Assembly (NCBI RefSeq): GCF_040807025.1
Contig: NC_090982.1
Span: 77,417,931 to 77,481,930, forward strand
Source of the DNA: Struthio camelus
Taxonomy: Eukaryota; Chordata; Aves; Struthioniformes; Struthionidae
Reading direction: 5' to 3'
Length of the DNA stretch: 64,000 bases
The notes under the pieces were generated by a model that saw only the letters and a program-made list of their open reading frames with translations, ran no database searches and was not told the origin of the DNA. Each line of letters starts with the position of its first letter. Positions within the stretch are counted from its first letter, which is position 1. Made by a program: the position numbers and the translations under genes. Below, one piece after another: positions 167 through 51,861 of the stretch.

Positions 167-241
167 CTACTTGAAGTTTCCATAGGTTTCAAATGAATTC
201 AAGTAACTGAGGGCTAGTTCATAGCACAGCCGATATTGCTC
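167..241 (-). CDS. Receptor PTP exon 30: C-terminus and stop
   Basis: 75 bp. [16 protein letters not shown] is the conserved last helix of D2 (EQYRFCYDVALEYLES in R2B members), then a short tail and TAG at 167-169. No poly(A) signal is seen in positions 1-166. Confidence 0.9.
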   Translation of the reverse strand, partial: EQYRLCYELALSYLNSFETYGNFK

Positions 242-3200
242 CTGTGGACAGGACATACATGAGTACACAGTGCATGAACCCTTGTCATGAAAGGCCAGCC
301 TGGCTGCTGACAGCTTTCTGAGTGATAGGCATAGGCGCCTATGGTATAGGAGCAGCCTGATCTCCTCCTCCCACTCACAGCCCACCTTCCCCCACTGAGA
401 AATCACATATGTGTACTCCAAGAAGCTGAGGGGCTGCAGCTAGCTGGTCTCAGGAGGAAAGCCAGCAACCACATCGCAAAATGTTTGCTGCTCACATCCA
501 TCCAGAGTGTTTTCCCCATCATGGCTTCCAGCATCTAGCTGGGAGGTGGGTGCAACGTAGGCACCTGAGCACCCACTGGTTCAGCCCTCAGCTGAGCAGG
601 GCCTGTGGACCAACAAGGGGCAGCTCAGCCTGTGGGATGCTCCAGCACCCACCTGGTTCTGCAGAGACTGCAGCTGAGTGGGCTGGGTATGCCACAGCAA
701 CAGAAAAGTAAGGTTTCCAGAGGTCTCGCCTTACCCAGAAGGATCTGAACATACAGGTTCTGGGGTAGCTGCCAGAACTGTTCAGGCTACGGCCTCTGCT
801 GTGGCGTTGCCATCCCCAGCTGGGTTTAGAGTCAGTACCTACCACATCCTTAACCAGCTGTCTCCGTCGCCTCTTCAACATCCTCACAGCCTGGGACACA
901 TCTACCTGTCCCTCACTTTGGATCTGCTCACAGAGAAAACTGGAAGCACAGAAGATCCCACTCCGGCTGGCACCATCCCTGCAGAGAAGAGCAAGGGGAG
1001 AGTCACTTGGCCTAGGATCACCTGGTAGTACTGAGCCGTGGGGGTGTCCTGCTAGCCACACAGGCCTGGGGCTCTCAGTATGGTCTCATACACAGATCCT
1101 ACATGAAGCCAGCCTCCATGGGGAAGCTTTCCTCCCATGAACACAGCTGAACCCATGTCCACAAGTCCATCCTTGGAACTGTGACCCAAGTTAGATGATG
1201 TATCCTGGACTGTGCCATAGCTGCCCCTGCTAGAGACCTTGCTCACCAGCAAGTGACGAGGACATGTGAACCTTGGCTCTGATGCTGGTGTGTCTCCACC
1301 TTTCCCAGCAGGCTGATGATGGTGGCAGGGCACGGGGGAAGGCACTGCTGCATGGGCCAGTCCTCCAGCTGACAGAACTGGACTTTCAGTGCAGATTTCT
1401 TGGGCTAGCAGAGAAGAAAGACAGTGAGCTGAGCCTAGAAGAACTACATGGAGGGAAGGGAGGGACAGTGTGTGCCAGTCCTAGCTCAGTCTTGCACAAT
1501 AGAACAAGGGAACAGCTCCACAGTGGGATGGCCTAGTCCGAGAGAGTGACTCTCCCCTTTTCCTTTGAGTGCTCTGAGACTGATAGATGGGCAGAGCGTA
1601 AGCTAAGAGCTGACTACCAGGTGCAGCTCAGATTGATGTCAGTCCGGGGCCTGACTACCTGTAATAGCTGTCCCCATCCAAGAGCCACCATGAGAATGCA
1701 CAGACTCTCTCCATGGCCACTGTCCTCAGAGTTCGAAAAGGCAACACAAACATACCAGTGCTCTGCCTTATATCTCTACCTGCAGCATGAGCCTCTCTGG
1801 ACTAACCTCTCCCCCAAGGGGAAAGGCCCTACACCATTCAGGGCCCTCCAAGGACCTCGTCAGGTCTCCCTGACCCTTGTGGCCTATGCCTTTGCAAGCT
1901 GTGACTCCAACCCCAGAGCAAAGCTTGCTGATGCTGGAGCCCTGCCAATACTCTCAGGTCTCACAAGGGCTGGTCTCATTTCACCATCTGTGCAAAGAGC
2001 CCACCTGCTGCTTGTTGGTCAAAGCGAGTGTCCAGACTGTGAAGCCAGCTCCGGGCTCCTCTGAGATCAGCTGGACATGGAAACAGCCGTAAATCGTTTC
2101 TCCCTGGGTGGGCCAGAACTCCACGTATGTCTAGGGGGTGACACACACATTATCACACACTGCCTCAATCTGCATGCATGGCAGAGCTCAGCAGTACTCA
2201 TATCGGTACGCTCAGCCCAGCCCTTCACCCACAAATCACGATGTGCACATGGGTGCTCTGCCTGCCGTGCACTTGGGACCAATAAACCCACAGTGTTGCA
2301 ATCAGAAAAATAACACCCCCACTGACAGGACACCTGGGCAGGCATAAGCAAAACCTGAAGGATGCTCCTTCCTCCCTTGCTATAGCCCACACCACGACAG
2401 TGGGGAGACACCATTACTGTAGTGCCTTATGAGAAGAGCTGCAGGGGGCTTAGGAAAAATAGTACACTGCCTGGCCCCATCGGGAGCCAGGGAGGGGAGG
2501 ACAGTGTGTAGGCTGCTGACCTGGTCCAGCTCCTGCAGTTGGTTTAACACAACCACCGATGTGCAGGTGTAATCCCAGACCAGAGCCCAGAAATCCACCA
2601 GTGTGGCCAGAAATGGCAGCTGGGTGATAATGAATCTGTCTTCCTCAGTGTATGTCTGCAAAACACAGCATGGAGGAGGTCACATAATCAACCCCCTTAG
2701 AGCCCTTCTAATCACAGGAAAAGGTCCTTGCCTCCTCCCAGCCAGGCTGCTGTTGCCAGCCCTGCAAGAGGATGGCCTGACTGCAAAGGGGCTACCTGTA
2801 GAAGTGGTTCCCAGCCACTGTGCATGTCAGTAGGGGTAACCCACACATCCCCAGCAGTGCAAGGGGCAGGAGCTGCTGGGAAGTTTCCACATGTACCCCC
2901 ACCAGCTGATGCTGAGCCCTGGAGAAGGCAGATGCTGGATCCCTGGGAGGTAAGCCTGAAGGTGGGTGACGTGACAATAGGAGATGGGGGGGACAGCAGC
3001 CTGCCTCCTTCTGTGGGTCCTCACAGAGCTGAGGGAAACAGTCGGTCCCCATGGATCCATCCCATTGGGACCTGGGGTTATTGCCAATATCCCCAGTCCC
3101 TGTAGTAACCACTTTGGCCAGGTACCTGAGCAACCTCCATGAGGCCAAATGCCAAACTAGGCAGCTCTGCAATCCCAGGAATAGAGCCCAGGAAGATGCA

Positions 3201-6200
3201 GGCCACCACAGCCCTGCTCAGAGCAGGTTTGCATCCCTCTGACCCCTCAGCTCATCACACTTGGTCCCTCCTCACAGCAAGCAAAGGCCACAGGCTGTAC
3301 AGCAGCCTGCTGAGCTGTATGCCAGGAGGGAGCCAGCGCAGGCAGGGTTTAAACTGATCACTGAGGCCATCTCCTGGAGGCAGAGCCCCACCACTGGGAA
3401 GCAATCACTGAGAGGAAGCCCCCGAGCTGAGACACATCAAATCCAGGACCCACAGTCTAGCCTTGCCTCAAGAGGTGGTGTTTGTGGGGCCCTGCAAGCC
3501 TTTGCTGCTCCCAGCAGCTCCAAACCCCTGTTGTGGCTGGAGCCTTACATCAGCGAACACTGCGTTGATATAACGTGGTGAGCCATCTGCATTCAGTGAG
3601 GACATGAGGACAGGCCGGCAGGAATCCGCTGTGGAGGTAAGGGCCAGAGACAGAAAGGGTGAGCCAACTTCTCCTTGCACAGAGACCCCAGGGCTTTCCT
3701 TGCAAGTGGTGGGGGTCAGCATGAGCAGACACCACCAGGCCCAGTGCCAGGAGCAGTCAGGGCTGTCTGACACAGGATGTCCCGAGCCCGCATGGGTGGA
3801 GGCACTAAGGAACAGCAACATTGCCCTCCTGATTGGTCCCTGATGCCCAGTTCTGGGACAGAATTGACCCAGGGACGTTTTTTATCTCAGGGCAGCCCAT
3901 GAATCCACTGGTCTGGCAAGTACAGAAGGAAGCAGGGAGGGATGGATGGATGGCGCCTTGCTCACACGGACAGATTGGTCTAGTCTACACTGAGTATTGT
4001 CAACCAGAAAGTGGCACTTGGCTGCCCTGGACTGAGCCTAGCAGTGGCATGGTGCCAAGAAGAAAGGCAGTAGTGCTGAGGACAGCAAGTCCACCCCATA
4101 CTACTCTCAAGTGCTGGATCACAGGGCAAAGGGCAGCCCAACCCTGCCAGCAGTACCTGGCAGGATCCCTGGCTTGCGATTCTTGGGCTGGTTGCTGGGT
4201 TTCTCCGCTTCTTTGCATGGCAGGAGCTGGAACAACTCGGAAAACTTCTGCAGGGCCTGATGGGATGATTCAGCTGAGCCATTCTGACTTATTAGTGACC
4301 CTCTCCCTCCTTCAGCCTCCCCCCAGAAATGCTCCCCCCATCTCCCTCCCTTTGCTGAGGGGGAGCAGCAAGGTGGAGGTACCAGGGAACAGCCCTGTCA
4401 GCACCAGATCCTTTGCAATAAAGAAAGCGAGAACATAGGGAGCTGCATGCTCAGCCACCCTTGACACAGCCTCAAAGACATGAGCCTGGCAGCTCGCGAA
4501 CCCCAGCTCCAGAGACTAAGACACACAGAGGGAGAGGCTTTGCCCAGCAGTCAGAGAGCCCAGAGGTGTGATTCCCCCTAATGAAGCTCAGCTTTGCCTT
4601 ACAGCCAACCAAATTAACATCTGTGATCCCATACAGCTTGCCCCAGAATGAGATCCCATGGTACCTTGAACTCTTTCTCAAGGATGTTGTTCTGCCTCTG
4701 GATCTCAGCTTCTCGTAGGGAGCTGATGTGGCTGATGACATTCTCCACTGGGACCCCGGTGCTGCCGCAGAGCAGGCCTTCAAGCAACACCTCATACAAG
4801 AAGGTGTACTGCTCCTGCATGAGGACATGGGTCAGCTGCACAGCCCAGACCAACTCCACCTGTTTGCACCCAGGGCCACAACACAGAGATTCCTGGGAAT
4901 CTAGGCCACCAGCCACTGGACTACATCTTTCTGATGGTGTCCTGTGCCAGGAATGAGCTAGCTCCAGCTTCACCCCCCCCTTGCTGTGAGTCCCTGAGGC
5001 CAAAAACCTCCCAGGTGTTGCTGATGGCCAGCCAGCAGATGAAATGACCCAGACAAGGCCATCTTCCTGTGGTTTAATGATCCTTCTCACTCCAGACCCC
5101 GGTTTGAGGAAGGAAACTCAGAAAAACAGTGAAAAGCTCCTCTTCAAGGGACCAAGGAACACGACCCATCCTATAGATCCCCTCCATGGGGCCTTAGCAC
5201 TGAGCAGACCATGGGAAGAGGGTCCCTCAGCTAGGACACTGCTGCCCAGAGGGTACCACGAGGGCAGATTTCCTGCAAGCCTAAAGGACATGTGCACTCT
5301 CACGCATCCGCCTTGCCTACAAGACAACCCTTCCATACCAGGATGACTGGTGCATTCAAAGGCTGCTGCCACTTCAGAGGGTCTCAGGAGAGCATGGAGG
5401 CTGCCTAGGTTTGGACACCACTTTGAAAACAAGAGCCTGCAGCCTCAGTCACCTGGCAGCCCCAGTCGCTGTGGCTAGACCATGCGCTGCACAGCCTGTG
5501 AGGCTTTGCACACCCACGTCCCTGGGAAGAGTGGGAACCAGAACGTGCAATCTGCAGCCTGCAGCATGCAGGGAGCAAGTAACTCTCCACACCTTGGTCT
5601 GCACCATGCTGACCCGCTGCTCCCGCAGCCTCTGCACACACCGAAACACATCCACCTTGCCCTCAGCCTTCGCCATCTTCAGGAGGAAGTCCAGGGCAAT
5701 GAAGGTACCTGTCCGCCCAATCCCCGCACTGAGAACACAGAAAAGGGAAATCAGCACTGCTCTGGCCACACTTGCTCCAGCACCTGAGTGCTCCCAGCCT
5801 AGTACCTGCAGTGTACCAGCACGGGGCCGGCAGGGTCTTCTGACACCCTCTTGTTCACCTTCTCCACTAAGCACAGGAGCTGAGCAGGGTTTCTGGGGAC
5901 CCCATGGTCTGGCCACAGCAGGTAGTGAAACTGCTCCACCAGTCTTGGGAGATCACAACCTGCCTGTAGAGAGGGAGAAAAGGGAGACAGGGCTGGGAAC
6001 AGGGAACAGGAACCATCCCAGAAAGCTGTGCAAGTAATTGCAGGCCAACATTTAGGGAGTAGTAGAGAAAACCATGGCAGGGATGCACCAGCACCCAGCA
6101 GTTCCCAGTCAGCACCCCTGCCATGCTGACTGATCCACCATAGCTCAGACAGCAATGGGCACAACAAGGATGAGGACTCTAAGCAAATTCATCAAGCACA

Positions 6201-9200
6201 CAGCCACACAATTCACTTTATTCTCTACTTCCCCACACTGAGAACAGCTAAACTTGAAGCAGTTGCTGACCTGTCTTCCTGGAGACCTGGCAAGGCTGAT
6301 CACAGGGTCTCTCGGCCAAAGGCACCTATCAGCTGCTGAACCCCCAGAAACACCCGGCATCCCCAACAGCTACATGCCAGTCTTACCTTCTGCAGGTGGA
6401 ATATGCGTGTGACAAGGCCTGAGGTAGTCCTTGTGTTGCTGAGTGTCACTGTGAAGTCCCCATAGACTTGCTCTTGCTCTGGCCAGTACTGCTCACACTT
6501 AGTCTGTCAAGAGAATCGAGACCCCTAAGCACTAGCAAACTCATTAGGGGAATGTTGCAAGCCAGCAGCTGTACACTGCATGCCCTGTATCACTGTTGTG
6601 CTTGGGCAGGCAACAGACAGTGCAAGGACTGATTCATGGCTCAGGTGGGATACAAGGTCTTGATCAGGGCTAACATGTTCCCCCGCACTGGAGACTTTCC
6701 TGATGCTTCACACACCCAGGGTACTGGTATGTGCTTTCTGGAGCAGCAATCTGCTCCCTGGGGACATGTGCTTTGATGGCACGTTGCTTTTCTTCTCTTG
6801 TGCTCCCCAAGGTCAGTCTCCTATACCAGACCAAGGGTGATGAGCTCCCGCTGGGAATGGGTGGCTCTGAAGCGGGGAAGGGGTCTGATGGGGAGCTGCT
6901 TTCTCTGCTCTTATTGATGGCTGCATCAAAACAAAGTAAAGCAGGCAAGGAAGCCTGGACCCCGGTGAGGCTCAGGGTGAGCAAAGACTGAGATGGTTTT
7001 TCTACCTTGTTCTGCTCCACTAAGCTTGTCAGCATCACAATGACTGAAGTCTTCTCCTGCCAGACCATCTGCCAGAAATCCACCACCGTTCCAGGCAAGG
7101 GGCCTTGGGGAGGAAGAGGAGAGCCCCATGTCATGATCCAGGACACGGAGGTGTAGCTGCTCCCAGCCACTGCACAGACTCCTAGGGCAGAGTGAACGTT
7201 CTCACGCTACAGAGCAGCTTTGGCTTTCCCTCTGCCCAGGGACAAACACTGCACAGCCTGAGGATGGCAGTGCCTAGTAGGGGGTGCTAGCTACCTTGGC
7301 TTCAGCAACCATGTTAGAGAGCGGGACAGGGAAAAGGGAAGGCAGGTGAAGGAATGCTGGGGACTCACTACTGCTGCAGGGACTTCTCAGTGGCCTATTG
7401 GGGTCCGGCAGCCAGAAGGCTGTGCAGTCTTGTGGCAGTGCAACAAGTAGCTTCCCTCAGTCAGATCCTTAGGTGACTGTGAGCTGCTCCCACATTTAGG
7501 GTCTTATTTCCTGAAAAGCATCTCCGCAGCTTGCATGGAGCCTTTGAGACCCCTCACTGCATGATGCCCAGAGAAGATTAATGTGTCCTGGTTCCATGCC
7601 ATCAGAGGCACCAGTTCTCTGAGTGCACTGACAATGCAGGAGTGTCAGGCATTTGCAGGTTTGACCCATGTGAAGACCAGACTGTCACATCAGTCTCAGT
7701 AGGAGATAGGGCAGGTTTGCAGGTGGGAGAAACCACGACATGCTCCAACCAGGTCTTTAGCTTAGTCAGACCAGAGATCAGAGCACAGCCTTCTTCTGTG
7801 GTCTGATCACTGCTGAAGTGCCACTGAGGCCTTTCATGCTCTGCAGCAGCAGTGGCCACCATCTGAGCCAGACACTCTGGAGATATGGGCCCTTGGACTG
7901 AGCCATTAGCAGTTCCTCTGCTGCTGTCCCAATTCTACACACTCCAAAAGGCTCAGAGCTGGGCCTGCCTTCTCCTGAGCATGCACAGGACCCTGAGCCA
8001 GCTTTGGGCAGTTCCCAGGGCTGCAAGCACCCACCTTGAGCTGCAATGAAGAAGCGTGGACTCTGGTAGCTCTGTGGGAGGGAAATTTAAAGAGCTCTAA
8101 TCACATGCATTAAACATTGAACAAGGAATGAAATAAACAATCCTTTCCCACAGGCTCCAGAGCCAAGAGTGCTTGGCAGAGAGTGTCCAGCAGCACTATT
8201 CTCAGTTAGCACAGACAGCTAGCATCCAAGGATGACATCTCCATTCCTGTCCCCCACTGTGAGTGTGGTCCTTTTTTGTTAAGGATGAGAATTGCACACA
8301 AATCCAGAGTACTCCAGGTAGCTCAGAGAGGATGCAAGGAAAATGACAGCCCAGGATCTGCCAACTCCTGAGGGCAGTAATGGTGGTGGACAGGACACCA
8401 TCCAGGACCCAGGACAAGTGCCAATCCTTGGGTCACCAATGTGAGAAGGACTGTCCCCACCCTGTACTGTAAGATAGCTGGTATCTCTCCTGCCCCTCAC
8501 AGGGCAGTAATTCCTCCCAATCTACCTCCACATAGCTGGCATTGATGTAGCCATTGCCTGTGTCAGAGGGCTGCAGCACCACACGGCAGTGATCATCTGA
8601 AAGAGAAGGGAGACATGAGGTCGTGGACTGCCTCTTTGGGGCAGAAGTGACTGTTTAAGGAAGGATATGTGATTTAGGAAACCCCAGGACTGCTGCTCCT
8701 CAGCAGCACTCCAGGTCTCAAGATACATTTGAAAGTAAAGCATAGTTAATGAAATGAAAGGTGACAGAGCACAGGAGGAAATGCAATGCATGGAGGAGAC
8801 TTAATGCAATGGCCAATATTCACACCAAGCAGGGCCCAGAACAACAGGATTCTCCATCTGGATGTAGAATTGTAGGGCCAACACCATGATTTGGATATAG
8901 AATTGGAGGGCCAACACAAACACCCCCCATGTAGGGCCAAACACCCATCACTTAAACTTGTGGGTTTAAGTGACCACAAGGTCACTGAAATGAGACGAGG
9001 AGCTCAGCGCTGTTGAATAGCTTACACCCACCCAGTGTCCTGTACTGCCTACTGCCCCTCCATATCCCTGTGGCAGCCCCTAGGAGGCTCTGCTTACATG
9101 GGATGATGCTCTTGTAGCGGTTCTTGCCCTCATTACATAGTTCCTTCCCGGCATCACAGGGATGCAACAAAGTGGAGACCAGTTTCTGCAGAGGAAGAAG

Positions 9201-12200
9201 ATGAGCCCACTCTGGATTAGCACATGTTCTGGGGCTGGCCAACAGCAACTGTATCACGCACCCAAGGTGGGGTTGGGTCTGGATGGACAGTGCAGCCAAA
9301 AGTGCAAGCAAAGCTAAATCAGACCTGATACTCTCCCAGACGCCCAGCACCTTCTCTGTTGATGACTGATTCATCCTCTGTCTGCTCTGCCTCTACTTCT
9401 TCCCTCTTGAACCTTTTCAGAGCCTCCAGCAGTTCCTCCACTGGGATCCGTGTATTCATCTTGTTCGCACCTATGGGGACCATGAGGCCAGCAATTTAGC
9501 ATGTATCTGATGCCTGGCATTGGGAGTGGGACCTTCGAAGTTGAGACTGGACTGGTATTGAGATGGGCAGGACCCCACCAAAGCCACACACAAGTCCCTC
9601 TCTCTCAGGAGGTGCCCTTCCCCATGCCAGCCAGCTCTGACCCTCTTGCTCCTGTAAGGACCTCAGAACCCCCCTGCCTGTGCTTTTAACATAGCGCCTG
9701 TCCAGACAGGGCTGTCGGGGTCTCTGTTCATACCACACCTCTTCGACATCTTCTCAGGGGAATAGTGCTGTTGCTTTCATAGGTTTGTGAACTGTTGCGC
9801 TTCCTCCTGCAAAACAGTAAGTCAGACCCATAGACCAGCAGAAGTGAGGGATATAGAGGAGAGCGTGTTGCCCATGTAACAGCCCTGCCTCCCACCTTGC
9901 TTTGTCTCATGGTCCACTCTGTACATTGCCTGGCAGCGCAGGGAGCTGGATGTCCCATGGCAGCACAGAGAGCAGGAGAGGTGAGGCACATACTGACCTG
10001 AAGAGCAGAAAGAGCAGCAAAATTCCTAGTGCCAGGAGTGCCACGACCAGCGCTACTGCCATAATCACCACTCTGCTGTCTAGCTGAGGAACCGGCTCCT
10101 GCCCTGCAACCAGCACAGCCCAGACTCAGGTTGCTGCACAGCCTGAACCAGGCAGTGGGACATCCTACTGGGGTAGTGCGGAGAAAAGTAGTTTTTCTCA
10201 CCTCCCACCACAGGCTTTGTGCTGGAGAACAGCTAAGCTAGAGCAGGAAGAACTTGCCTGGCTTGATACCCTTCAGCATGAGCACTGTCTCTCTGACTGT
10301 CCCCAGGCATGGCCAGAGCCTGGTGAGGTGCTTGCATTAGTGGGGCTGCATATGTACCAAGGGAGCATTAAGACTTATATTCAACATGAGATGATGGCAT
10401 GGATGCACAATACCCATGGCTGCCAGCCGTGCTACTCCTTGCAGGCCACCCTGCATTGCCAGACCAATGATGTGTGTCATCTGCTTCTCCTATCCCTCTC
10501 CAGGAACCCTTCCCAGGGAAGGCATGCTGCCTTCAGCATCCAGAAGAGCTATCAGAGATGGGCTGTGCACACTTCTGGCCAGCCAAAAGCCTCCCAGGCT
10601 TCTCCCACCTGTCCCAGCAGTGTCCCTGTGTGGTGCTGGGGCAGCTGAGGGTGACAAAGAGTCAGTGGCCCTGGCAGGCAAGCGGGAGGAGGATTTTTTT
10701 CCTAGCAACACACCCCATACTGCAGTGTCAGCCACAGCACAGATCTCAGTAATACAAGACCAGGTCGGGAGTGTCCAGCCATCCCTTGAGATCATTCAAC
10801 TCTGACATCATGATGGAAATGAGCAGTAAATACACAGGGACAGAGGCTTGAAGGGAGGCCAGTGAATACCTGTGCAAGTGGCCAAGGATAGCCACCTGCT
10901 ATCCATCCATCCATTAGAGTCTCAAGATGGCATATGCAAGATGATGGAAGTGAGATGTTGTTATGGGAGACCCACGTGTATGAGAAAGAAAAGGTTTCCT
11001 CTCCCCAGCACTCCAGGACCCTCCTGCCCTTTGACTCAGCTTTGGCTTTCCCTCTCCAAGGGAAGCGGCCAGGTGGGGAAAAGGTAGGATGCGGGATGGT
11101 GCCTCTGGCACAGGGTGCGGGGCCGAGCCCGGCCCTGAGGAGAGGAGCCCACTTACCAACAGAGAAGCTGTAGCAAACGCAGGTGAACTTCTCTGCCTGT
11201 TGGAGGAGACAGGAGGGAGAGCTCAGGCCACTGCTGCCCAGCTGCCCGCTCCCGGGAGCAAAGGCCTCCGCCCCACGGCCACAAAATGCCCCAGCTGCGG
11301 CCAAAGCTCCCCAGCGGGACTGTGCTGCCAAAATGCTCCAGCTTTCAGCGTGTGGGGCAGGAGCAGCCCCCCTCGCCGCGCTGCTGGGGACGGGGCCTGG
11401 GGAAGGAGCAGCCTGTGCCCTGCTCCGAGCCCCGCAAGAGGCTACCTGCTGCCGGCGGCGAACGAGGCGGAGAAGGGCCGTGTAGTTCCAGTCCGGCTGG
11501 AGGGGAGCGTTGTAGTAACCGTGCCGGCGGGTCCCGTCACCCAGCACAAAGTCGGTGGGGGCCGTGAGGTTGAGCACGGCGGCCACATAGGCACGGTGCT
11601 GCAGGCTGGCGTTGAAGGGCGGCAGCTGCTCTGAGCAGGCGCCTGCCACCGCAGCGGCGTCCTGGCTGGCAGCAACGATGAGCTGGTGCTCCCTGCAAGG
11701 CAGGGCTGTCACAGGGGCCGGGGGGCACGGGCAGCGAGAGAGCAGAGCAGAGGCAGCCACGGGGAAGTGCTGCCAGAGGGGAAACGCTTCACGGGACGGA
11801 GAGGAGCCGAGCTCCGCGGGGGCTGCGCTCACCTCACTGCCTCGTGGGGCTGGGTGATGGGGCGGAGGGGAAGCACGGCCGTGCCTTGGGACCGGGAGAT
11901 GTCACGAGCACCGCGGGAGCTGACGTTGAGAGGGGCGGTGGTCTCTGAAGAGGAACCAGAGGGCCAAGGCTCAGCAGGCGGCCGGGCAGGGAGGGGCCCT
12001 GCGGGGTGCAGGCAGCAGCCCGCAGGCAGTGAGGCTGCAGAGCTGCCCCGGCTGGTGCAGCTGAGCCCGCGCAGGCCTTTTGCAGGACGGGGGCGGTGAT
12101 GGGGCTTGACTGGCCCTGCATCTGCCCTGGCAGAGGCCCGGGGCTTGGCCAGGGGGCAGGGCCCCGCCGCCCCACTGCACCGCTGCCTGCCACGCTCCAC

Positions 12201-15200: not shown

Positions 15201-16958
15201 TGGGCAGATGTCTCCCATTCTTCATAATCTGAAGGACCCTTTTGCATGTGGCCTGGGGGAGGGATGGCTGATATCCCTCAGGGCAGCTCAGTTTCACTTC
15301 TTCATTCACCCTGTAGGCTTGCTGCTCTGGTGTCAACTGAAGCCGAGAGTCCCACTGGGGCTTTGGGCATTTTACTGTCAAAGAAAAAAGCGTGCGTGTT
15401 AGTGGGGGCTGGGAGGGTCCTGGGATGTCTTTAGCATCAACACAGCGAGGAAATGCAAGGGATTCTGCTGAGCACTGGACAGGAGCTTGTGCCTGGACAC
15501 GGAGGCGATGTAGGACCCTTAAAGGGATGAACAGAGCAGGATTAGACCACTGGGCTCCAGGCTGCTGCCCTCACTTTCTCCAAGGTCCTCACGGCCACTG
15601 CACATTGTGGCCATATCATGACAATGCACAAGTCTAGGTATCACTGATGAAAGGACAAAGCAGCCCCGACTGGACACACGGCCACCCTGCAGGCGGGAAC
15701 CCACAACAGGAAGAAGCCCTGGTGTGTGCTGCTCTGCTGACCTCACCTTACCATGGGTGATGCGGGACCTTCCCCCTCCCCCCCGCCTCCAAAATTGCAC
15801 TCCCTCACCATCGCTGCCTCGTGGCCTCTCAAGCATCTCTCTGCACAGACCGTGTGGGAAACTGTCCCCTGGGCTTGGATCCCTCCTGCCACCACCTGCA
15901 CTCAGACACACCCTCACTGAGCTGGAAGAAGGGGCACAACCGCTAGTTTCTGTGCCCTCCCTCACCTGCACGGCATGCACTGCAGAGCGTCAGGGCTGAG
16001 AAGCTGATCCCACACCCCAGTAAAACTGTACCCAGGAGCCTCAGGTCCACTGACAGATTTCAGCCCCCCAAGGCAGAGGCAATGGCGACACACCCATCGG
16101 CCGGGGCCTGACACCCCCAGCAGACCAAGAGGGAAGAGGCTTTTCTTGCAGCAAGGCACCACGACCAATCACTTATCCATGAACTTCCCTGCTCTGCTCT
16201 CATCTCCATTGACACTTGGAGCTCTCCACCACTTCATGCCGCAAGGAGTTTTCCCAGGGCAATCGCACCCTGCATGAGGAGACTCCTCTTTTGACTCCTT
16301 TGGTAGTGCCGCCTTCCCCACCCCTTACTACCTTGCTAGGAAAAAGACCCTGAAGCACCGGCTCAACACACCCCACGCTCTAGCACATCTCCTCCACAGC
16401 CTTGTCCAGCTGAAGAGCCCTGTTGCCTGTCACACTCCTTGCGCAGAGGCTGATCTGGTGCATCCTCCTGCCGTTGCCCTGCCTGCCCTGAGATGCAGAG
16501 AGCGAGCCCAGGGAACCGAAGGCTCACGCAGCATGCAGGGTGGCTCCCTGTCCCTGTCCCACCTCCCCTGCACTCTGGGCTGCCACATGCAGCCAACCCT
16601 GCACTCGGCCAAGCTCTGTGCCTGCCGGGGCAGCTCCACACCCAGCAGCCCCTGAGGGAGGGCATCGCTCTTCCCCACGGGTGTCACTCCACTGCCGCCA
16701 TCCCAGATGCTGAGGGCCATCCGAGCACTGGCCACTCAGGGCTCACTTTGGTCCCCTCAAGCCCGGCTGCAGGGGCCACAGCAGATGTCTCCCATCCCTC
16801 AACTGCATGGGCAGGCAGGTGACAGGAATGGGACAGACCTCCACCTTCTGGGGTGGCACCTCAGCAGGCACCTTGGTGAGAACCTCCAATCCTGCCCCAG
16901 GCCCTGGCACCACATCCGCAGGGCCCCACACTTGGCCTCCTCAGGAAGGACCGCAGGA

Positions 16959-16990
<32 letters not shown>

Positions 16991-19900
16991 CGGGAAGTCG
17001 TCTCCTGTGCCTTGACTGGCCTCTTCCACCAGCACGCACAGGACACACAGCAGCAAGGGGGAACTGTGGCATGCCTGGCACTCAGCTGGGCAGCATCACG
17101 AATGGCCACCGTGGGTCAAGGCTGAGAGGGGACTCAGGAGAGCTGCTACTTCATCGCTTACCGATACACACCATGCTGCTCCCAGTACGAATCCAGCCAC
17201 CTGTGCTGTTCCTCCCCCACCAGGCATTGTCATATACTGGCTTTCCAGAGCTCAGTTGCAGAAATTCCCTTGCACATCTGACGTGGGTGAAGGATGGCTC
17301 CAGATCTCCAGGGCAGGTGAGCGTCAGTTCCTCATTCAGTTCGTAATGGCTTTTCTTTGGTGAAAACCGGAGGTGATGGTCCCCCTGGGGTTTTGGGCAC
17401 TTTCCTGCTAGAGAGAAAGCGTCAGCTCCTGTGTTGGGTCGAGGAGATGCTCATGCAGGGGGGCTGCAGCTGTGCCACAACTGGCAGTTGGTGTTGGCAG
17501 TCAACACCACCAGGACACGTCCCGAGCACAGGATAGGAGCGTGTGCCTGGACACAGCAGTGATGGAGGACACTCAGAGAGAGAAGAATGGGGTAGGGTTT
17601 GGCCACTGGGCTCCCTGCTACCACCTTCATTTTCCCCCAAGCTCTCCATGGCCTCTGCCCAGTTTGCACTAACTTCTGTCCAGTCCACCTTGTGCATCGC
17701 CGCAGCAGGGCCAATTAAAGGACGCAGGGCGTTAGACTGGACACACGACCACCTTGCATGCAGGAGCCCACAGTGGGAACCAGCCCTGGCGTCTGCTCTT
17801 CTCCTCACATGACCATTCATGATGGGAAGCACCTCCCCACAGCCTCCGATTTCCCAGTCCCTCCATCACTCTCTCCTTCTCCAGCTCTTGCGGTGATCTC
17901 CTGTGACTCAGGAAAGAGCAGGGAGGAGATGCAGAGACAGTCAGAAAAGCTGTCCCACACAGAAGGCTTCTGTCCCTCCCCAACCCCCCATGCATCCAAC
18001 CAGCTTGGAGACTGCTCCCAGCTGTGACCCATCTCCAAGCTGAGGTCCACACATCCCACAGTCGTGGTAGGCTGCCCAGGGTCCCTGCTTGGGAGAACAG
18101 CATGCAGCAGGGGAAAGCTGCTGCTCTTCCACTTACCCACGCAGGTCAGGTTCTCTGCTATGTGATGCCAGGCTCCCAACATGGTTCTCACTTCCCAGGT
18201 ATCCCTCAGATCTGGAGATCTCTCTTTTGCACATCTGATCACAGCAAGGGGAGGAGCATCCGCGGCAAGGCAGCTAAGTGTCAGCTCTTCATTAAGCCTG
18301 TAAAATCTCTGCTCTGGGGCAAAGTGGAGCCTTGGGTCCCACTGGGGCTGCTGGCATCTCGCTGCACAGAGAAGAAGAGGTGGGTGTCAGCCGGCTGGGA
18401 AGGGGCTCGCTGTGGGTCTGCAGCTCCAAGGTCATCACCCAGGCAGAGCAGCAGACCCGGTGGTATACAGAGCTGGCCTGAGCATTTCAAGTGCTCCTAG
18501 GAAACAGGAGACCGGTGACGGGCTGGTTGGAGCCTCTGGGTCAGGACCAGGGAGAGGCCAGTAAGGGGGACATCGTGGTGGGAGTGTGCCCCCACCACCT
18601 CCTCAGGTGAACAGATGGGCACAGTCCGGTTTAAGCAACTTGAGGAAGTCTCCAGGTTACAGACGTGGGGAGCCTCAAGGTCCCCAAGATCTGCTGGGAG
18701 AGCAACACCGTGGGGTGCAACAATCCCAGAGCTTTCTGGAGGGCCTTGGGGATAACCTCTCAGCACAGCCACTGGATGGGCCAGCCAGGTGTGAAGCCCT
18801 CTGGGACATGCCATTTGTGATCCAGGAAGAGCTGGCTGGGGTTGTGATAATCAATGGCAGCCTTGGCTGTAGTGCCTGGGAGAGAGTGGCGGCTGACTCC
18901 ACTGGTGGAGGCAGTGAGCACGTAGCAGAGCACAGAGCCCAGCCCTCAGGAGGGCAGACATCTTCTTGCTCTGGCCTGGTCAGGCGGTTCCCATAGGGGG
19001 CAAAGGAGCTCCGGAAAGCTGGCAGGTCTGTAAGGACAGCCACCTCCAAGCACAAGACCGGTCCATCCCCATACTCAGGAAAACGGGCAGACATAACAGG
19101 GGACCGGCTTGGCTGAGCAGGGGACTGAGCTGCAGCGCAAGAAGGCAGTAGATGGGAGGCAGAAGGCATTTTCTAGGACAGCCAGGATGGAGGGGCTGGT
19201 GCCAGCCCAGGACCCTGGGATCCAGGTGACGTGAGGCTGTGCTTATCCTCACAGGTGGCAGTCTCGTTCCACAAGCTCTGGCTGCGGTTGGAAATGCATC
19301 TGACCACGGGGACTGATGGCTGGTAGCCCCCCACACAACTCAGCTGCACCAGGTCATTCAAGGTGTAGCTGGTCTTGTCAGGGGTAAACCGCAGCTTGGG
19401 GACCCAGCTGGAGGGGGCTTTGCATCTTCCTGTGTGCGACAGAAATGAGGGAGAGCCCTGGGCATCCCCTGGCTCTGGCAGCATTCTCGGGGCAATGGGA
19501 CCTCATCCTTTCAGAGGGGTTGCAGGGATGAGCCCCTCCCAGGATCAGGGATTGCCCCTAAACCTAGACCCCAGTGCATTTACCCCGGTCACGCCAGGGA
19601 TGAGGAAGGGTTCCCGCAGGCGCGCCTGCCCCACCCTGCGCTGTCCCACGCTTCTGCGAGGGATCCCAGCTGCCAGATCCAGCAGCCTGGTGGATCTGCC
19701 CCAAAGACAGGGGCAGTGGGAAGGCATCAACTCCAGCAAGTCTCTGCTACCACCACACACCCACATTCATGTCACGCTGCTGTGCAGCTTCTAACAATAC
19801 CTGCCCATACCCATGAGCACTCTTATTTCCAGAAAAAAAAAAAAAAATCAAGATGCTCATTTGTTTTTGCTCTGCAGGTCATGTTGGATATTTTCTCCTC

Positions 19901-22900: not shown

Positions 22901-25366
22901 TCACTTCCTTGGCAAGTCCAGGGCCCCTGCAGCCTGCGGTACTGCCCCAAACCCCTGGTCCCCCCCCCCTCCATCCTCATCTCCGAAACTATGGTGATGC
23001 CTGTGGCTTTTCAGGAACTGGCGCTGCCGATGCTCAGAGCAGGGGGACGGGGTGATGTGAGGGGCTGCGTGCACTCGGCATGCGGGAGCCCTGCTGTGGG
23101 GCAGTGTCATGCAGAGGGAGCAGCTCATCCATACATGGCTTGTCCCCACTCCCCAAGCATCTCTTTGATCTGCCAGGGTCGTGGGGGATTCTCAGGGACA
23201 TCCAGGAAAGGGGGTCTTGGGCCGTGTCCTGCTCCCATGCTCCCCCCATCTCCCTTGTCCAACCCTGCTCCGCTGCCCTGTGGAGGCCTCTTACCTTCCA
23301 GGGAGGTGGGAGGTTTCTGGGACCTTGTGCCCCTCCTGGCTATCCCTGATGTCTTGGCATCAGTGAAATGAGGCCCTCGAGCCCGGTCCCCGGGATGGGA
23401 TGAGCCCATGTGCTGAGGATGCAGGCAGGGCTGCCTGCACCACTGGGTGCGGCTGCTGCGTGTTTTCATCTGTTTCTCGTTTTGCAGATGCTGGGGTGCA
23501 AACTCAGCAATGCCTTCTCCGCCGCAGGCAGCCCCAGGCTTCCCCTGGGACAGCCAGGCAACAGCATCGCGCAGAGCACGCAGAGGGTCTGCCAGCCGCT
23601 GACTCCTCGCTAAGTCTCTGCACGTGTGGTGCAGCCAGGTCCTGGCCTTGGCGTGCCCACGTGTGCCGTGCTAGTTGACTGCAGAGCCGTGCCATGCATG
23701 AACTGCACATGCTGGTCCTGCAGGGGATCCAGGTGAGGGCAAGCCACCGCAGGCAGGAGGATATCCTCCGTTGCGGGCTAGCCCTCGGTTTTCGAGTGAC
23801 AGAGTGCTGTGCTCACAGTCCCTGCAACCACAGGGACACCTCCCCTCTGGGAATGGGCTTGAGGCTCTGACAGTCCGTGTCACACAGCACAGCACTGCTG
23901 TCGCTTCACTGGGCCTGAATTCACATCAGTAAGCAAAGATCCCCGTCCGGTTTCCAGATCTCTGTAATAGCCAGGATCTTGAATCAGCTCCTTCTTTTAA
24001 CCCGCATCAGCCCAGAGATATCCCCACAGCAGGTCAGGACAGTGTGAGCAGCTGCTAACTTAGTGATTTTGTCACCTAGCCCGAGCAAGGTTAGCTTAGA
24101 GAAACACTCAGCTTCAAACAGATGCAGAGCAACACAGGGTCACAGCCCCCGGCACTGAACCCAGCGCTCACACCGTGCCTAGCTGGACTGATTCACTGGC
24201 TTTCTGGGAGGTCGTACAACATTTGACCCTACAGGGACACATGAAAGGACTCTGCTTAGATGTGAATGTCAGCCTCCTTTCTCATTTTTGCTGACAGGTG
24301 CTAGAAATAGTGAAACAACCATGATCTGCTCTTAGAAAGTAAGCTGTGCTGCAATGCACCTCTGCCCGAGCTGGGAGGGGGCACGTGCTCCACGTTCACT
24401 GTGTGTATCTGTCCCTACCCCAGATCTCTGTCCACTCTGAGCTGTTCAGGGGAAGCTGAGGGCTACCCATTGCTGGGAGGACAGCATCCTGCCAGTCACC
24501 AGCGATGGGTAACGTGATTCATGTGCTCATGGTCATGGCAGTCACTGCTCACTGGTTTCCCTGTGGAGACAATGACTCATCCCTCCAGCACACCAGCCCC
24601 TGGTGTGGGGGGAGAGGGGTGCACCACAAATACTGGCAGCCTCGGGGCACAGCACAGAGGACAGCATGCAGCCTTCATAGGAAGAGCCAACAGAGCCCTG
24701 GGAAGTGCCCCTGGTCCTCCTGGCTCTGCAGAAGCCCTCTGAAGAGCAATCCCACCAAACCACCACTCCTATCTCCAAGGGTCTCTGGGGAGAGTAGGCA
24801 TCCCTGCTGACACAGGGACTCAGCTCACAGCTTCCAAGGTCTTTGCTGAGGACTAGCACCCATCATCCCTGCAATGGGGACGTTGCTCCGATGGCCCTGG
24901 GAAAGCCACGCACTCCTGCTCCTCAGGACACCGCCCACTCCTTGGAGGAACATTACAGCCCCCACGCTCTCAGAAGCTTTCCCAGCGCCCTGAGGCTTGC
25001 TGCCCTCCACCCCAAACACAGCTTCACCCCACTGCTACCTGACTGATGCCTGACTGTCTTGGGACTGATGTAGTCATCAAGTCCATCTTCTTCAGCACAG
25101 CTGCTCTGAGCCAAATGGGGTAAAGACTCATTGCAAACTAACGGAAAGAGGAGCAGCAAAACCTCTTCTTGCAGACACAAAAGCAACAAAATAAGTCAAG
25201 TCCTACCAGTTTCGCTGGCTTCTTCTAGGACTTCAGGATGAGGATCTTTCTGTTCCCATGAAGCCAGCAGAGGTGCATCTTCTAGGACTTCAGGATGAGG
25301 ATCTTTCTGTTCCCATGAAGCCAGCAGAGGTGCAAGAACCAGGAGAAAGGCCCATCTCAGAGTCAT
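167..25366 (-). CDS. Sushi/FN3 receptor-type protein tyrosine phosphatase (whole gene, 30 coding exons)
   Basis: A single-pass surface phosphatase predicted to dephosphorylate phosphotyrosine on cytoplasmic proteins. Joining 30 exons with matching phases gives 4,047 nt (1,348 residues plus stop) without a frame break. Order: signal peptide (about 1-20), short acidic linker (to 86), four sushi domains (87-384), FN3-like domains (385-711), membrane span (723-746), basic juxtamembrane stretch, D1 (about 810-1050) and D2 (about 1080-1340). D1 keeps KNRY, WPD (Asp950) and [10 protein letters not shown] (Cys983, Arg989), so it should be active. D2 keeps C(X)5R (Cys1278, Arg1284) but has WPM where WPD belongs. 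D2 ([25 protein letters not shown]) and the membrane-proximal ectodomain ([18 protein letters not shown]) resemble R2B phosphatases; the D1 start ([12 protein letters not shown]) recalls CD45. No orthologue name is assigned. Ligand and tissue are unknown. The 3' UTR continues beyond position 1. Confidence 0.85.
843..978 (-). CDS. Receptor PTP exon 29: D2 P-loop
   Basis: 136 bp, phase 2 to 0. Completes [20 protein letters not shown], a C(X)5R loop most like the D2 loops of CD45 (CRDG) and R2B members; then [20 protein letters not shown]. Confidence 0.88.
1247..1404 (-). CDS. Receptor PTP exon 28: D2 WPD-equivalent and cysteine
   Basis: 158 bp, phase 0 to 2. [15 protein letters not shown] has Met1244 where catalysis needs Asp. 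The exon ends HVLVTC plus two bases, so the P-loop His is Thr but Cys1278 remains. Confidence 0.85.
2005..2130 (-). CDS. Receptor PTP exon 27: D2
   Basis: 126 bp, phase 0 to 0. [20 protein letters not shown] is the YWP...YG block of D2. Ends NKQQ at donor CAG|GTGGGC. Confidence 0.85.
2521..2655 (-). CDS. Receptor PTP exon 26: D2 core
   Basis: 135 bp, phase 0 to 0. [20 protein letters not shown] then [17 protein letters not shown] is close to the R2B D2 core (FIVTQYPL...DFWRLVYDYGCTSIVMLN). Confidence 0.9.
3549..3628 (-). CDS. Receptor PTP exon 25: D2
   Basis: 80 bp, phase 1 to 0. [20 protein letters not shown] then AVFAD matches the DRCLPFL...SNYINAALMD block of R2B second domains. Confidence 0.85.
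4157..4256 (-). CDS. Receptor PTP exon 24: start of D2
   Basis: 100 bp, phase 0 to 1. [20 protein letters not shown] then [10 protein letters not shown] replaces the KNRY motif of D1. A second AG nine bases into the exon (CTGCAG|AAG) could be used without a frame change. Confidence 0.8.
4665..4814 (-). CDS. Receptor PTP exon 23: end of D1 and inter-domain linker
   Basis: 150 bp, phase 0 to 0. [19 protein letters not shown] closes D1 in the manner of R2B phosphatases (LEACLCGET); the rest is a charged linker helix. Confidence 0.88.
5593..5728 (-). CDS. Receptor PTP exon 22: D1 P-loop
   Basis: 136 bp, phase 2 to 0. Begins [17 protein letters not shown], completing [10 protein letters not shown] with Arg989, and ends [11 protein letters not shown] with the conserved Gln. 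All catalytic residues of D1 are present. Confidence 0.92.
5806..5963 (-). CDS. Receptor PTP exon 21: D1 WPD loop and catalytic cysteine
   Basis: 158 bp, phase 0 to 2. Contains LLWPDHGVP (general acid Asp950) and ends in GPVLVHC plus two bases, so the catalytic Cys983 is the last full codon. Confidence 0.92.
6387..6503 (-). CDS. Receptor PTP exon 20: D1 core
   Basis: 117 bp, phase 0 to 0. [20 protein letters not shown] is the KCxxYWP...YGD block. The exon ends in RIFHLQK, donor AAG|GTAAGA. Confidence 0.9.
7006..7103 (-). CDS. Receptor PTP exon 19: D1 core
   Basis: 98 bp, phase 1 to 0. [20 protein letters not shown] then [13 protein letters not shown] matches the TVxDFWxMVWE...IVMLT core of PTP domains. 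Confidence 0.9.
8035..8071 (-). CDS. Receptor PTP exon 18: D1 FIAAQGP segment
   Basis: 37 bp micro-exon, phase 0 to 1, encoding [12 protein letters not shown] before the GP of exon 19. This small exon is typical of receptor PTP genes. Confidence 0.85.
8526..8596 (-). CDS. Receptor PTP exon 17: D1 substrate-recognition loop
   Basis: 71 bp, phase 1 to 0. Encodes [20 protein letters not shown] then SYVE, matching the PYDxxRVxL...DYINA(S/N)Y block, including the phosphotyrosine-loop Tyr carried by the YDH motif. Confidence 0.88.
8860..8950. repeat. Short 33-bp tandem repeat
   Basis: Two clear 33-bp units (opening GGATGTAGAATTGTAGGGCC and GGATATAGAATTGGAGGGCC) and a third degenerate unit, in the intron between exons 16 and 17. 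Confidence 0.7.
9098..9185 (-). CDS. Receptor PTP exon 16: D1 KNRY motif
   Basis: 88 bp, phase 0 to 1. Contains [11 protein letters not shown], the invariant KNRY motif at the start of a PTP domain. Donor CAT|GTAAGC. Confidence 0.85.
9397..9470 (-). CDS. Receptor PTP exon 15: start of the phosphatase region
   Basis: 74 bp, phase 1 to 0. Encodes [20 protein letters not shown], like the helix before D1 in CD45 and other receptor PTPs. The donor GAA|GTAGAG is weak but gives the phase required by exon 16; reading on to GAAG|GTGCTG would not. Confidence 0.7.
9739..9806 (-). CDS. Receptor PTP exon 14: basic juxtamembrane
   Basis: 68 bp, phase 2 to 1. Encodes [20 protein letters not shown] and a few more basic residues. 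The donor is weak (AGAG|GTGTGG) but is the only one that keeps exon 15 open; a GTATGA donor seven bases further on would lead into a stop. Confidence 0.65.
9998..10103 (-). CDS. Receptor PTP exon 13: transmembrane segment
   Basis: 106 bp, phase 1 to 2. After PVPQLDSR come about 24 hydrophobic residues ([20 protein letters not shown] then FLLF), followed by arginines from exon 14, the expected stop-transfer signal for a type I protein. Confidence 0.88.
11157..11196 (-). CDS. Receptor PTP exon 12: extracellular stalk
   Basis: 40 bp, phase 0 to 1, acceptor CCAACAG, donor G|GTAAGTGGG. Encodes [13 protein letters not shown], analogous to the TxCVRIA segment ahead of the membrane in R2B phosphatases. 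Confidence 0.75.
11446..11692 (-). CDS. Receptor PTP exon 11: membrane-proximal FN3 domain, second half
   Basis: 247 bp, phase 2 to 0. The [19 protein letters not shown] motif corresponds to the VGD-x-Y-x-G-x-WNPPL segment before the membrane span of R2B phosphatases, then [10 protein letters not shown] as the FN3 F/G strand. Three sequons. Confidence 0.8.
11833..11944 (-). CDS. Receptor PTP exon 10: membrane-proximal FN3 domain, first half
   Basis: 112 bp, phase 1 to 2. Starts [12 protein letters not shown] and ends in an FN3 C-strand-like stretch before exon 11 (EHQLIVAAS). One sequon. Donor AG|GTGAGC. Confidence 0.7.
12206..12398 (-). CDS. Receptor PTP exon 9: FN3 domain, second half
   Basis: 193 bp, phase 0 to 1. 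The acceptor CGTCCTCCAG|CTG was chosen because it continues GYQ into [19 protein letters not shown] in frame; upstream alternatives bring a stop or odd residues. [20 protein letters not shown] is the FN3 F strand. Donor G|GTAAGG. Confidence 0.8.
12985..13082 (-). CDS. Receptor PTP exon 8: FN3 domain, first half
   Basis: 98 bp, phase 1 to 0. [20 protein letters not shown] and KGEILGYQ are the A-B and C strands of a typical FN3 domain. Donor CAG|GTACCAGG. Confidence 0.8.
13473..13763 (-). CDS. Receptor PTP exon 7: FN3-like domain with extra cysteines
   Basis: 291 bp, phase 1 to 1. Reads [15 protein letters not shown], then several cysteines (FPDAC, ATCQL, PTCEAE, FTCAP), then [14 protein letters not shown], the YxxxI strand typical of FN3 domains. 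The whole domain is in one exon. One sequon (NWT). The cysteine-rich character recalls the membrane-distal CD45 region, but similarity is too weak to name it. Confidence 0.75.
13791..13910 (-). mobile_element. CR1 LINE 3' fragment
   Basis: Read on the minus strand it has the avian CR1 3' hallmark (GTTGGACTAGGTGGTCTCC, then CCCTTCCAAGCTAAACCATTCTGT), preceded by the usual CTGGATGTGATCCTGGGCA block. It is 5'-truncated, as CR1 copies usually are, and sits inside a former sushi exon. Confidence 0.9.
13911..13961 (-). pseudogene. Relic sushi exon truncated by a CR1 insertion
   Basis: After a normal acceptor (CTCTGCCAG) the minus strand reads [16 protein letters not shown], the same opening as exons 4-6. 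At about 13910 it then runs straight into CR1 sequence and reaches an in-frame TGA at 13882-13884. The second half of the domain and the donor are gone. Inclusion would truncate the receptor in its ectodomain; skipping it preserves phase. Confidence 0.8.
15132..15374 (-). CDS. Receptor PTP exon 6: sushi domain 4
   Basis: 243 bp, phase 1 to 1, acceptor TTTGACAG, donor G|GTAAGTGG. Four cysteines ([17 protein letters not shown]) and Trp (GNWMYIQ). This is the last intact sushi domain before the FN3 region. The next sushi exon downstream is a relic, so exon 6 must join exon 7; both sides are phase 1. Confidence 0.82.
16960..16991. repeat. (TGCC)n microsatellite
   Basis: About seven perfect or near-perfect TGCC units in the intron between sushi exons 5 and 6. 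Confidence 0.9.
17162..17404 (-). CDS. Receptor PTP exon 5: sushi domain 3
   Basis: 243 bp, phase 1 to 1, donor G|GTAAGC. Four cysteines (KCPKPQ, LTC, VRC, MVC) and Trp (GGWIRTG). The acceptor is a TAGCAG tandem, so a one-residue splice variant is possible. It is closely similar to exon 6 in length and C-terminal layout (ST-G-W). Confidence 0.8.
18137..18361 (-). CDS. Receptor PTP exon 4: sushi domain 2
   Basis: 225 bp, phase 1 to 1, donor G|GTAAGTGG. Complete sushi pattern: RCQQPQWD start, LSC, IRC, a Trp and ENLTC; one sequon. The opening CxxPQWDxRLxF motif is shared with exons 5 and 6 and the relic at 13911-13961. Confidence 0.8.
19247..19429 (-). CDS. Receptor PTP exon 3: sushi domain 1, damaged donor
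   Basis: One complete sushi domain (residues about 87-147) with four cysteines (RCK, LSC, VRC, TATC) and the conserved Trp (SLWNET); two sequons. Acceptor CACACAG is good. By comparison with the other sushi exons the donor should follow TGT GAG G, but the next bases are ATAAGC, not GTAAGC. A GT donor six bases upstream (CCT|GTGAGG, exon end 19253) keeps the frame but removes the fourth cysteine. The given end is the expected ancestral one. Confidence 0.65.
19430..25038 (-). other. Large intron 2 of the receptor PTP
   Basis: 5.6 kb between the linker exon and sushi exon 3. I found no further sushi-like exon in it. It holds a 14-base A run near 19835, T runs near 21272 and 21522, and AT-richer DNA around 21400-22400. 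Nothing else is recognised. Confidence 0.5.
25039..25137 (-). CDS. Receptor PTP exon 2: acidic N-terminal linker
   Basis: 99 bp, phase 1 to 1, between acceptor CCGTTAG and donor CAG|GTAGCA. It encodes a Cys-containing acidic stretch ([19 protein letters not shown]...) with one N-glycosylation sequon (NES). No known domain is recognised. It is included because phases and splice sites fit exons 1 and 3. Confidence 0.6.
25207..25366 (-). CDS. Receptor PTP exon 1: start codon, signal peptide, duplicated segment
   Basis: The start is chosen because [17 protein letters not shown] is a good signal peptide and the exon ends at a clean donor (CTG|GTAGGA) in phase 1, matching exon 2. Residues 12-30 and 31-49 are near-identical 19-residue copies ([18 protein letters not shown] plus D or E), made by a 57-bp tandem duplication with one difference. 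Cleavage near residue 17 would leave the second, still partly hydrophobic, copy at the mature N-terminus. A further 5' non-coding exon cannot be excluded. Confidence 0.75.
25220..25333 (-). repeat. 57-bp tandem duplication in the signal-peptide exon
   Basis: Copies at 25277-25333 and 25220-25276 differ only at the final coding base. The duplication is in frame and adds 19 residues straight after the hydrophobic core of the signal peptide. Confidence 0.92.
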
Positions 25367-51770: not shown

Positions 51771-51861
51771 GGTGAGGAATGCTCTTCAGGACATCAGTTA
51801 AGCTGGCATGACCCATGGACAGGTTGTGGTGTACATGAGAGGCTGGAAGAACACTTCTCAT
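51763..51861 (-). other. Upstream ORF overlapping the RUSC2 start codon
   Basis: An ATG at 51861 opens 32 codons in another frame and stops (TAG) just inside the RUSC2 coding sequence. Translating it would compete with the main start. Coding potential for a stable peptide is not evident. Confidence 0.45.

Follow-up and report, generated by a model that had tools for sequence, protein, structure and literature searches.

The DNA analysed here is a window of 64,000 nucleotides from Struthio camelus, positions 77417931 to 77481930 of contig C41 (NC_090982.1), and the genome searched with it comprises 1.45 Gb in 262 contigs. On its minus strand, from 25366 to 167, the window carries a gene of 30 exons that we identify with high confidence, by setting it against the published description of chicken Mystran, as the Mystran of the avian and reptilian Trojan family. 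A sequence-only reading of the same DNA had reported 30 exons that join in frame; the exon chain, rebuilt independently from the sequence, has the same exon number and identical outer ends. Its product, a type I membrane protein, is laid out as a signal-like start, four sushi-like exons (S1 to S4), an FN3-like region, one membrane span, and two PTP domains (D1 and D2). The features, with the exons placed by the rebuilt chain and further evidence in parentheses, are as follows.

25207..25366, minus, exon 1, start codon and signal-like peptide (comparable Trojan and fragment first exons, by eye)
25039..25137, minus, exon 2, linker
19253..19429, minus, exon 3, sushi 1, S1 (Pfam, see below)
18137..18361, minus, exon 4, sushi 2, S2 (alignment to the other sushi exons)
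17162..17404, minus, exon 5, sushi 3, S3 (alignment to the other sushi exons)
15132..15374, minus, exon 6, sushi 4, S4 (Pfam, see below)
13910..13961, minus, stub of a fifth sushi exon, outside the joined protein (sequence; junction; complete exon in Trojan)
13473..13763, minus, exon 7 (F1), FN3-like in position and appearance (no Pfam match when scanned singly)
12985..13082, minus, exon 8, FN3, first part (Pfam fn3)
12206..12416, minus, exon 9, FN3, second part (Pfam)
11833..11944, minus, exon 10, membrane-proximal FN3 (PTPRM-like)
11446..11692, minus, exon 11 (F5), membrane-proximal FN3, PTPRM/PTPRU-like (Pfam, subthreshold)
11157..11196, minus, exon 12 (F6), FN3 end
9998..10103, minus, exon 13, membrane span (hydropathy)
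9739..9806, minus, exon 14, juxtamembrane
9325..9470, minus, exon 15, juxtamembrane
9098..9185, minus, exon 16, D1, KNRY motif (motif scan)
8526..8596, minus, exon 17, D1
8035..8071, minus, exon 18, D1
7006..7103, minus, exon 19, D1
6387..6503, minus, exon 20, D1
5806..5963, minus, exon 21, D1, WPD loop intact (motif scan)
5593..5728, minus, exon 22, D1, remainder of the 10-residue signature shared with exon 21 (motifs)
4665..4814, minus, exon 23, D1 end and linker
4157..4256, minus, exon 24, D2, KNRK replacing KNRY (motif scan)
3549..3628, minus, exon 25, D2
2521..2655, minus, exon 26, D2
2005..2130, minus, exon 27, D2
1247..1404, minus, exon 28, D2, WPM replacing WPD (motif scan)
843..978, minus, exon 29, D2, remainder of TCWDGASRSG, C-x5-R retained (motifs)
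167..241, minus, exon 30, D2 end and stop codon
40597..40929, minus, ORF with the partial RUN domain of a flanking gene (match to Iporin, 2.7e-29)

Pfam searches with the joined protein recovered Y_phosphatase in two stretches (6.2e-140), Sushi (3.5e-9), and a single fn3 stretch (1.2e-8). The claim that a receptor PTP carries sushi domains is thus borne out by the open frame and the Pfam domains, the sushi domains being divergent. Taken together, the four sushi exons alone match the Sushi model at 4.5e-12; scanned singly, two of the four rise above its cut-off of 20.7 bits (S1, 21.3; S4, 23.5), and S2 and S3 have no Pfam match, their assignment being based on 35% identity to S4 and on common Cys and Trp columns. 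An alignment of all four has 11 invariant columns, which include three cysteines and one tryptophan; the fourth cysteine of S1 as spliced is lost at the splice and replaced by Ser. The stub of the fifth sushi exon is broken at 13910, the site at which about 0.96 kb of Trojan sequence is missing from Mystran, and passes directly into a CR1-like tail with a putative CR1-like 20-mer at 13821-13840. In the FN3 region, residues 483-575 alone exceed the Pfam cut-off; the membrane-proximal FN3 (residues 545-712) resembles that of PTPRM (2e-5), and the Fn3_PTPRU model scores 18.1 bits on the protein, under its cut-off of 24.7. We count 12 N-glycosylation sequons in the ectodomain. When hydropathy was scanned in 19-residue windows, the threshold of 1.6 was passed only by the membrane span (windows starting at 720-736) and by one D2 window (1175). 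The N terminus stays below 1.6 and is not strongly hydrophobic; the putative signal start is supported because the first exons of Trojan and of a neighboring fragment look alike by eye.

A lone exon elsewhere on the same contig, C41:16955623-16955832, scores 31.1 bits with Fn3_PTPRU and is, among the eight matches listed, the only one above the cut-off outside the four R2B loci. A large sushi array (17.43-17.49 Mb) is about 0.48 Mb away, and none of the best 150 of 319 sushi candidates falls beside the exon. The gene, possibly SUSD1, may have its membrane-proximal module in common with Mystran.

Within the cytoplasmic part, the motif scan found KNRY, WPD, HC-x5-R, and the Q loop all present in D1. 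D2 retains C-x5-R and has KNRK and WPM, the aspartate of WPD being absent; the D2 of the R2B gene on contig C2 likewise has WPM. Against single-domain PDB chains, D1 matched PTPRK (264.8 bits), PTPRT (260.3), and PTPRM (259.7) best, followed by PTPRE (234.1), PTPRU (232.3), and PTPRA (225.5), and NCBIfam returned for it only weak bacterial matches far under the cut-off. By raw identity, D1 is as close to an R4-type gene (54%) as to the R2B genes (53-56%). The D1/D2 tree that had been proposed as a check was built from eight receptor PTPs of this one genome, namely Mystran and the exons of seven others; it is unrooted, uses 131 (D1), 91 (D2), and 222 (both) sites with exon D2e omitted, and was bootstrapped 300 times. 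Four of the genes were counted as R2B because Fn3_PTPRU exons above the cut-off sit in the same parts of C2, C3, C18, and C23; the letters K, M, T, and U and the names of the remaining receptor PTPs are our assumption, based on chicken gene order. Mystran groups with these four in 246 (D1), 295 (D2), and 296 (both) of the 300 replicates.

An affinity to R4 or CD45 was suggested by the C terminus, by eye, and by a search of D2 against the PDB, in which PTPRA came first (1p15, 161.6 bits) and no R2B D2 chain appeared among the best 60 of 243 matches. The tree did not confirm it: for D1, D2, and both, respectively, Mystran paired with the R4-type gene in only 18, 0, and 1 of 300 bootstraps and with CD45 in only 12, 1, and 3. 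Pairing with R2A was also rare (1, 3, and 0).

An alternative to an old sister lineage is that Mystran is a young offshoot of a single R2B gene that acquired a sushi head. In favor of such an origin, D1 comes out nearest to R2B both in the PDB search and in the tree, and the membrane-proximal FN3 is PTPRM-like. Against this, the four R2B genes form a group without Mystran in 241 (D1), 267 (D2), and 284 (both) of 300 replicates of what is a small unrooted test, so that the PTP domains do not fall inside the K/M/T/U clade, and relatives of Mystran are reported from the coelacanth (PMC4372362). We consider a young offshoot unlikely. The phosphatase half of Mystran is best read as a predicted sister to all four R2B genes. 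The suggestion that the cytoplasmic half is R2B derived therefore holds as regards its affinity, with a place beside the four R2B genes and not inside them; that an R2B-type phosphatase gained a new head is possible.

The integrity of the gene was assessed from its coding sequence and from a second copy on contig C40, which is 99.77% identical over 29,933 aligned bases. The 4,131 coding nucleotides specify 1,376 aa with a single, terminal stop, all 29 introns are GT-AG, and the phases are consistent throughout. The least certain exon is exon 2, and the frame survives its being skipped. Positions 25221-25334 of exon 1 form a perfect 57-bp tandem duplication, which is in frame, lies within the signal-like peptide, and is present on both C40 and C41. 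This duplication, the missing fourth cysteine of S1, and the reduction of the fifth sushi exon to a stub might be expected of a decaying copy that yields no working protein. Such decay is nevertheless very improbable, given 1,376 codons free of stops and frameshifts, the intact splice sites, and the intact D1 motifs; moreover, the two copies differ at 4 of 4,131 coding bases, and all four differences, few as they are, are synonymous. Judged by its sequence, and because of this coding agreement with the C40 copy, the gene is real and intact.

The neighborhood of Mystran is equally informative. On one side lies the RUN ORF, which scores 19.1 bits against Pfam RUN, under the cut-off of 22, and whose match, Iporin, we take to be RUSC2. 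Three large ORFs on the same strand as the RUN exon (36039-37121, 46447-47313, and 49782-51785 of the window) have no Pfam match of their own and are probably RUSC2 coding exons. On the opposite flank, where 50 kb was examined, Trojan copies lie on the strand opposite to Mystran, with two on C41 (FN3 exons at 77401293 and 77412208, about 10.9 kb apart) and one on C40 (57863974). The C41 copies are mutually 99.82% identical over 9,292 bp, and the unequal number on the two contigs is either a copy-number difference or an assembly artefact. Trojan copies combine a sushi exon with FN3 exons, and their span and short, basic tail were recognized by eye. The proximal copy (C41, about 77414519) lacks 217 bp corresponding to Mystran 11250-11466, that is, the end of F5 and its donor site, and F5 and F6 there run on in frame as a single exon. 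Farther out, at about 77388640-77392780 of C41, is a Thracian-like fragment in which FN3 is missing and only a signal-like exon and two sushi exons are present; it is followed by stretches resembling Mystran introns and the Trojan 3' end. Across the genome, 40 of 41 ectodomain matches fall in the C40/C41 cluster, the other being on C28 with an E value of 0.57, and neither a Thracian FN3 nor a complete Thracian is among these 41. For TESK1, an initial motif scan across the 50-kb flank returned nothing; a second, with TESK kinase motifs, recovered two kinase exons past the Thracian-like fragment (Pkinase, 38.8 bits; cut-off, 31.7), which, when joined and searched against the PDB, matched CDK1 best and LIMK1 third and which, by their motifs, resemble TESK1. 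Because Mystran sits between the RUSC2 RUN exon and the TESK1-like kinase exons, beside two Trojans, we regard this as the Trojan family locus.

Contigs C40 and C41 measure 70.4 and 89.9 Mb, and a putative PTPRD locus on C41 has no C40 counterpart among the matches listed. They may represent W and Z, sharing a large pseudoautosomal region such as has been reported for palaeognaths (PMC6735826), in a paper that also presents RNA-seq from emu spleen, brain, and gonad.

Three tracts of the window closely resemble neighboring members of the family.

10970..13912, no strand assigned, conversion-like tract with exons 7-12 and their introns (99.69% identical to the distal Trojan over 2,943 bp)
15396..16815, no strand assigned, intron tract like the Thracian-like fragment (99.72% identity)
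18096..19760, no strand assigned, tract with exons 3 and 4, like the Thracian-like fragment (99.58% over 1,665 bp)

With the proximal Trojan, whose orientation is likewise inverted, the first tract shares 99.88% identity over 2,446 bp and 100% over 280 bp; beyond it, the Mystran sushi exons are 38-52% identical to Trojan's. Over 2,250 columns, drawn from 50-column windows picked for a Mystran-Trojan identity of 90% or more, there are 3-7 differences between Mystran and Trojan, 4-6 between Trojan copies, and 2 between the Mystran copies. That FN3 exons and introns alike are 99.7-99.9% identical to those of the adjacent Trojans points to recent gene conversion, or very recent copying, as what explains the Mystran-Trojan tract. 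A wrong join of two neighbors, one a phosphatase gene and the other a Trojan-like gene with sushi and FN3 exons, could also present an FN3 part nearly identical to the adjacent Trojans but is scarcely credible, since the Trojan-like tract stops at 10970 without reaching a Trojan membrane exon, the span that comes next is Mystran's own (9998-10103), the phases hold throughout, and the published Mystran has the identical joined layout (PMC4372362).

The account of the family published in 2015 described Mystran as its phosphatase in chicken and ten other birds, and the eleven named there include no ratite (PMC4372362). Relatives are given from the anole, two turtles, and the coelacanth, and its authors state that they found no trace of the family in human and mouse (PMC4372362). 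On the chicken Z, Mystran (CCP, two FN3, and two PTP domains), Trojan, and Thracian are placed between RUSC2 and TESK1, with the CCP prediction slightly subthreshold (PMC4372362); save for a complete Thracian, the order and strands at the present locus agree. The same account records the highest Mystran RNA-seq read counts in macrophages, positive selection in the ectodomain with a conserved intracellular part, and gene conversion between Mystran and Trojan (PMC4372362). The layout had been put forward as new; with Mystran in print since 2015, a sushi-bearing receptor phosphatase is an already known kind of gene. The accompanying remark that human receptor PTPs lack sushi domains stands, in keeping with the published lack of any trace in the mammals searched (PMC4372362); as a general statement, the absence of sushi from receptor PTPs may be true of mammals and is false of birds and reptiles.

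How such a locus might function can be sketched as follows. Mystran would be displayed on leukocytes, where its sushi and FN3 part would bind a fast-changing protein partner; D1, to go by its motifs, would dephosphorylate tyrosines, and D2 would be regulatory. The short-tailed Trojans, free of a phosphatase, might share this partner or compete for it, and gene conversion would keep their FN3 part almost identical to Mystran's. With FN3 parts so nearly identical, Mystran and the phosphatase-free Trojans may meet the same partner, a possibility raised by the authors of the family as well (PMC4372362). Tentatively, and with the balance leaning slightly against it, we read the locus as a paired-receptor system around a phosphatase, in which the ligand-binding part is still being copied between genes and decoys take part in a race with a changing partner. 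The basis for this reading is that Mystran and Trojan differ about as much as Trojan copies do from one another and that the number of Trojans differs between C40 and C41. If it is true, one ectodomain is retained by a phosphatase and by several decoys alike. What the locus adds is modest: a Mystran from Struthio camelus that has more sushi exons and whose shared tracts are very fresh, along with a Trojan number that differs between contigs. It should help to date conversion and to address whether Mystran and Trojan have one binding partner.

Among known systems, CD45 (PTPRC) is, in the comparison drawn by the family's authors, similarly a receptor PTP of leukocytes whose ectodomain changes fast and whose tail is conserved (PMC4372362); it differs in that Mystran lies outside its clade in the bootstraps given above. 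The R2B phosphatases (PTPRK, PTPRM, PTPRT, and PTPRU) have the closest D1 and D2 in the genome and a similar membrane-proximal FN3, whereas Mystran carries sushi domains and groups beside the four. Of the MAM and Ig domains that R2B has at the N terminus, MAM has no Pfam match in Mystran up to an E value of 1, and the Ig_2 and Ig_3 models match below their cut-offs only, covering the sushi exons. The nearest counterpart is chicken Mystran (LOC100858919), which likewise has CCP and FN3 outside and two PTP domains inside, adjoins RUSC2, and has Trojan on the opposite strand with a near-identical stretch common to both (PMC4372362). The two differ in sushi count, with four and the stub of a fifth here versus one CCP in chicken and three in the anole, and in size, with 1,376 aa versus 1,186 aa in chicken (PMC4372362).
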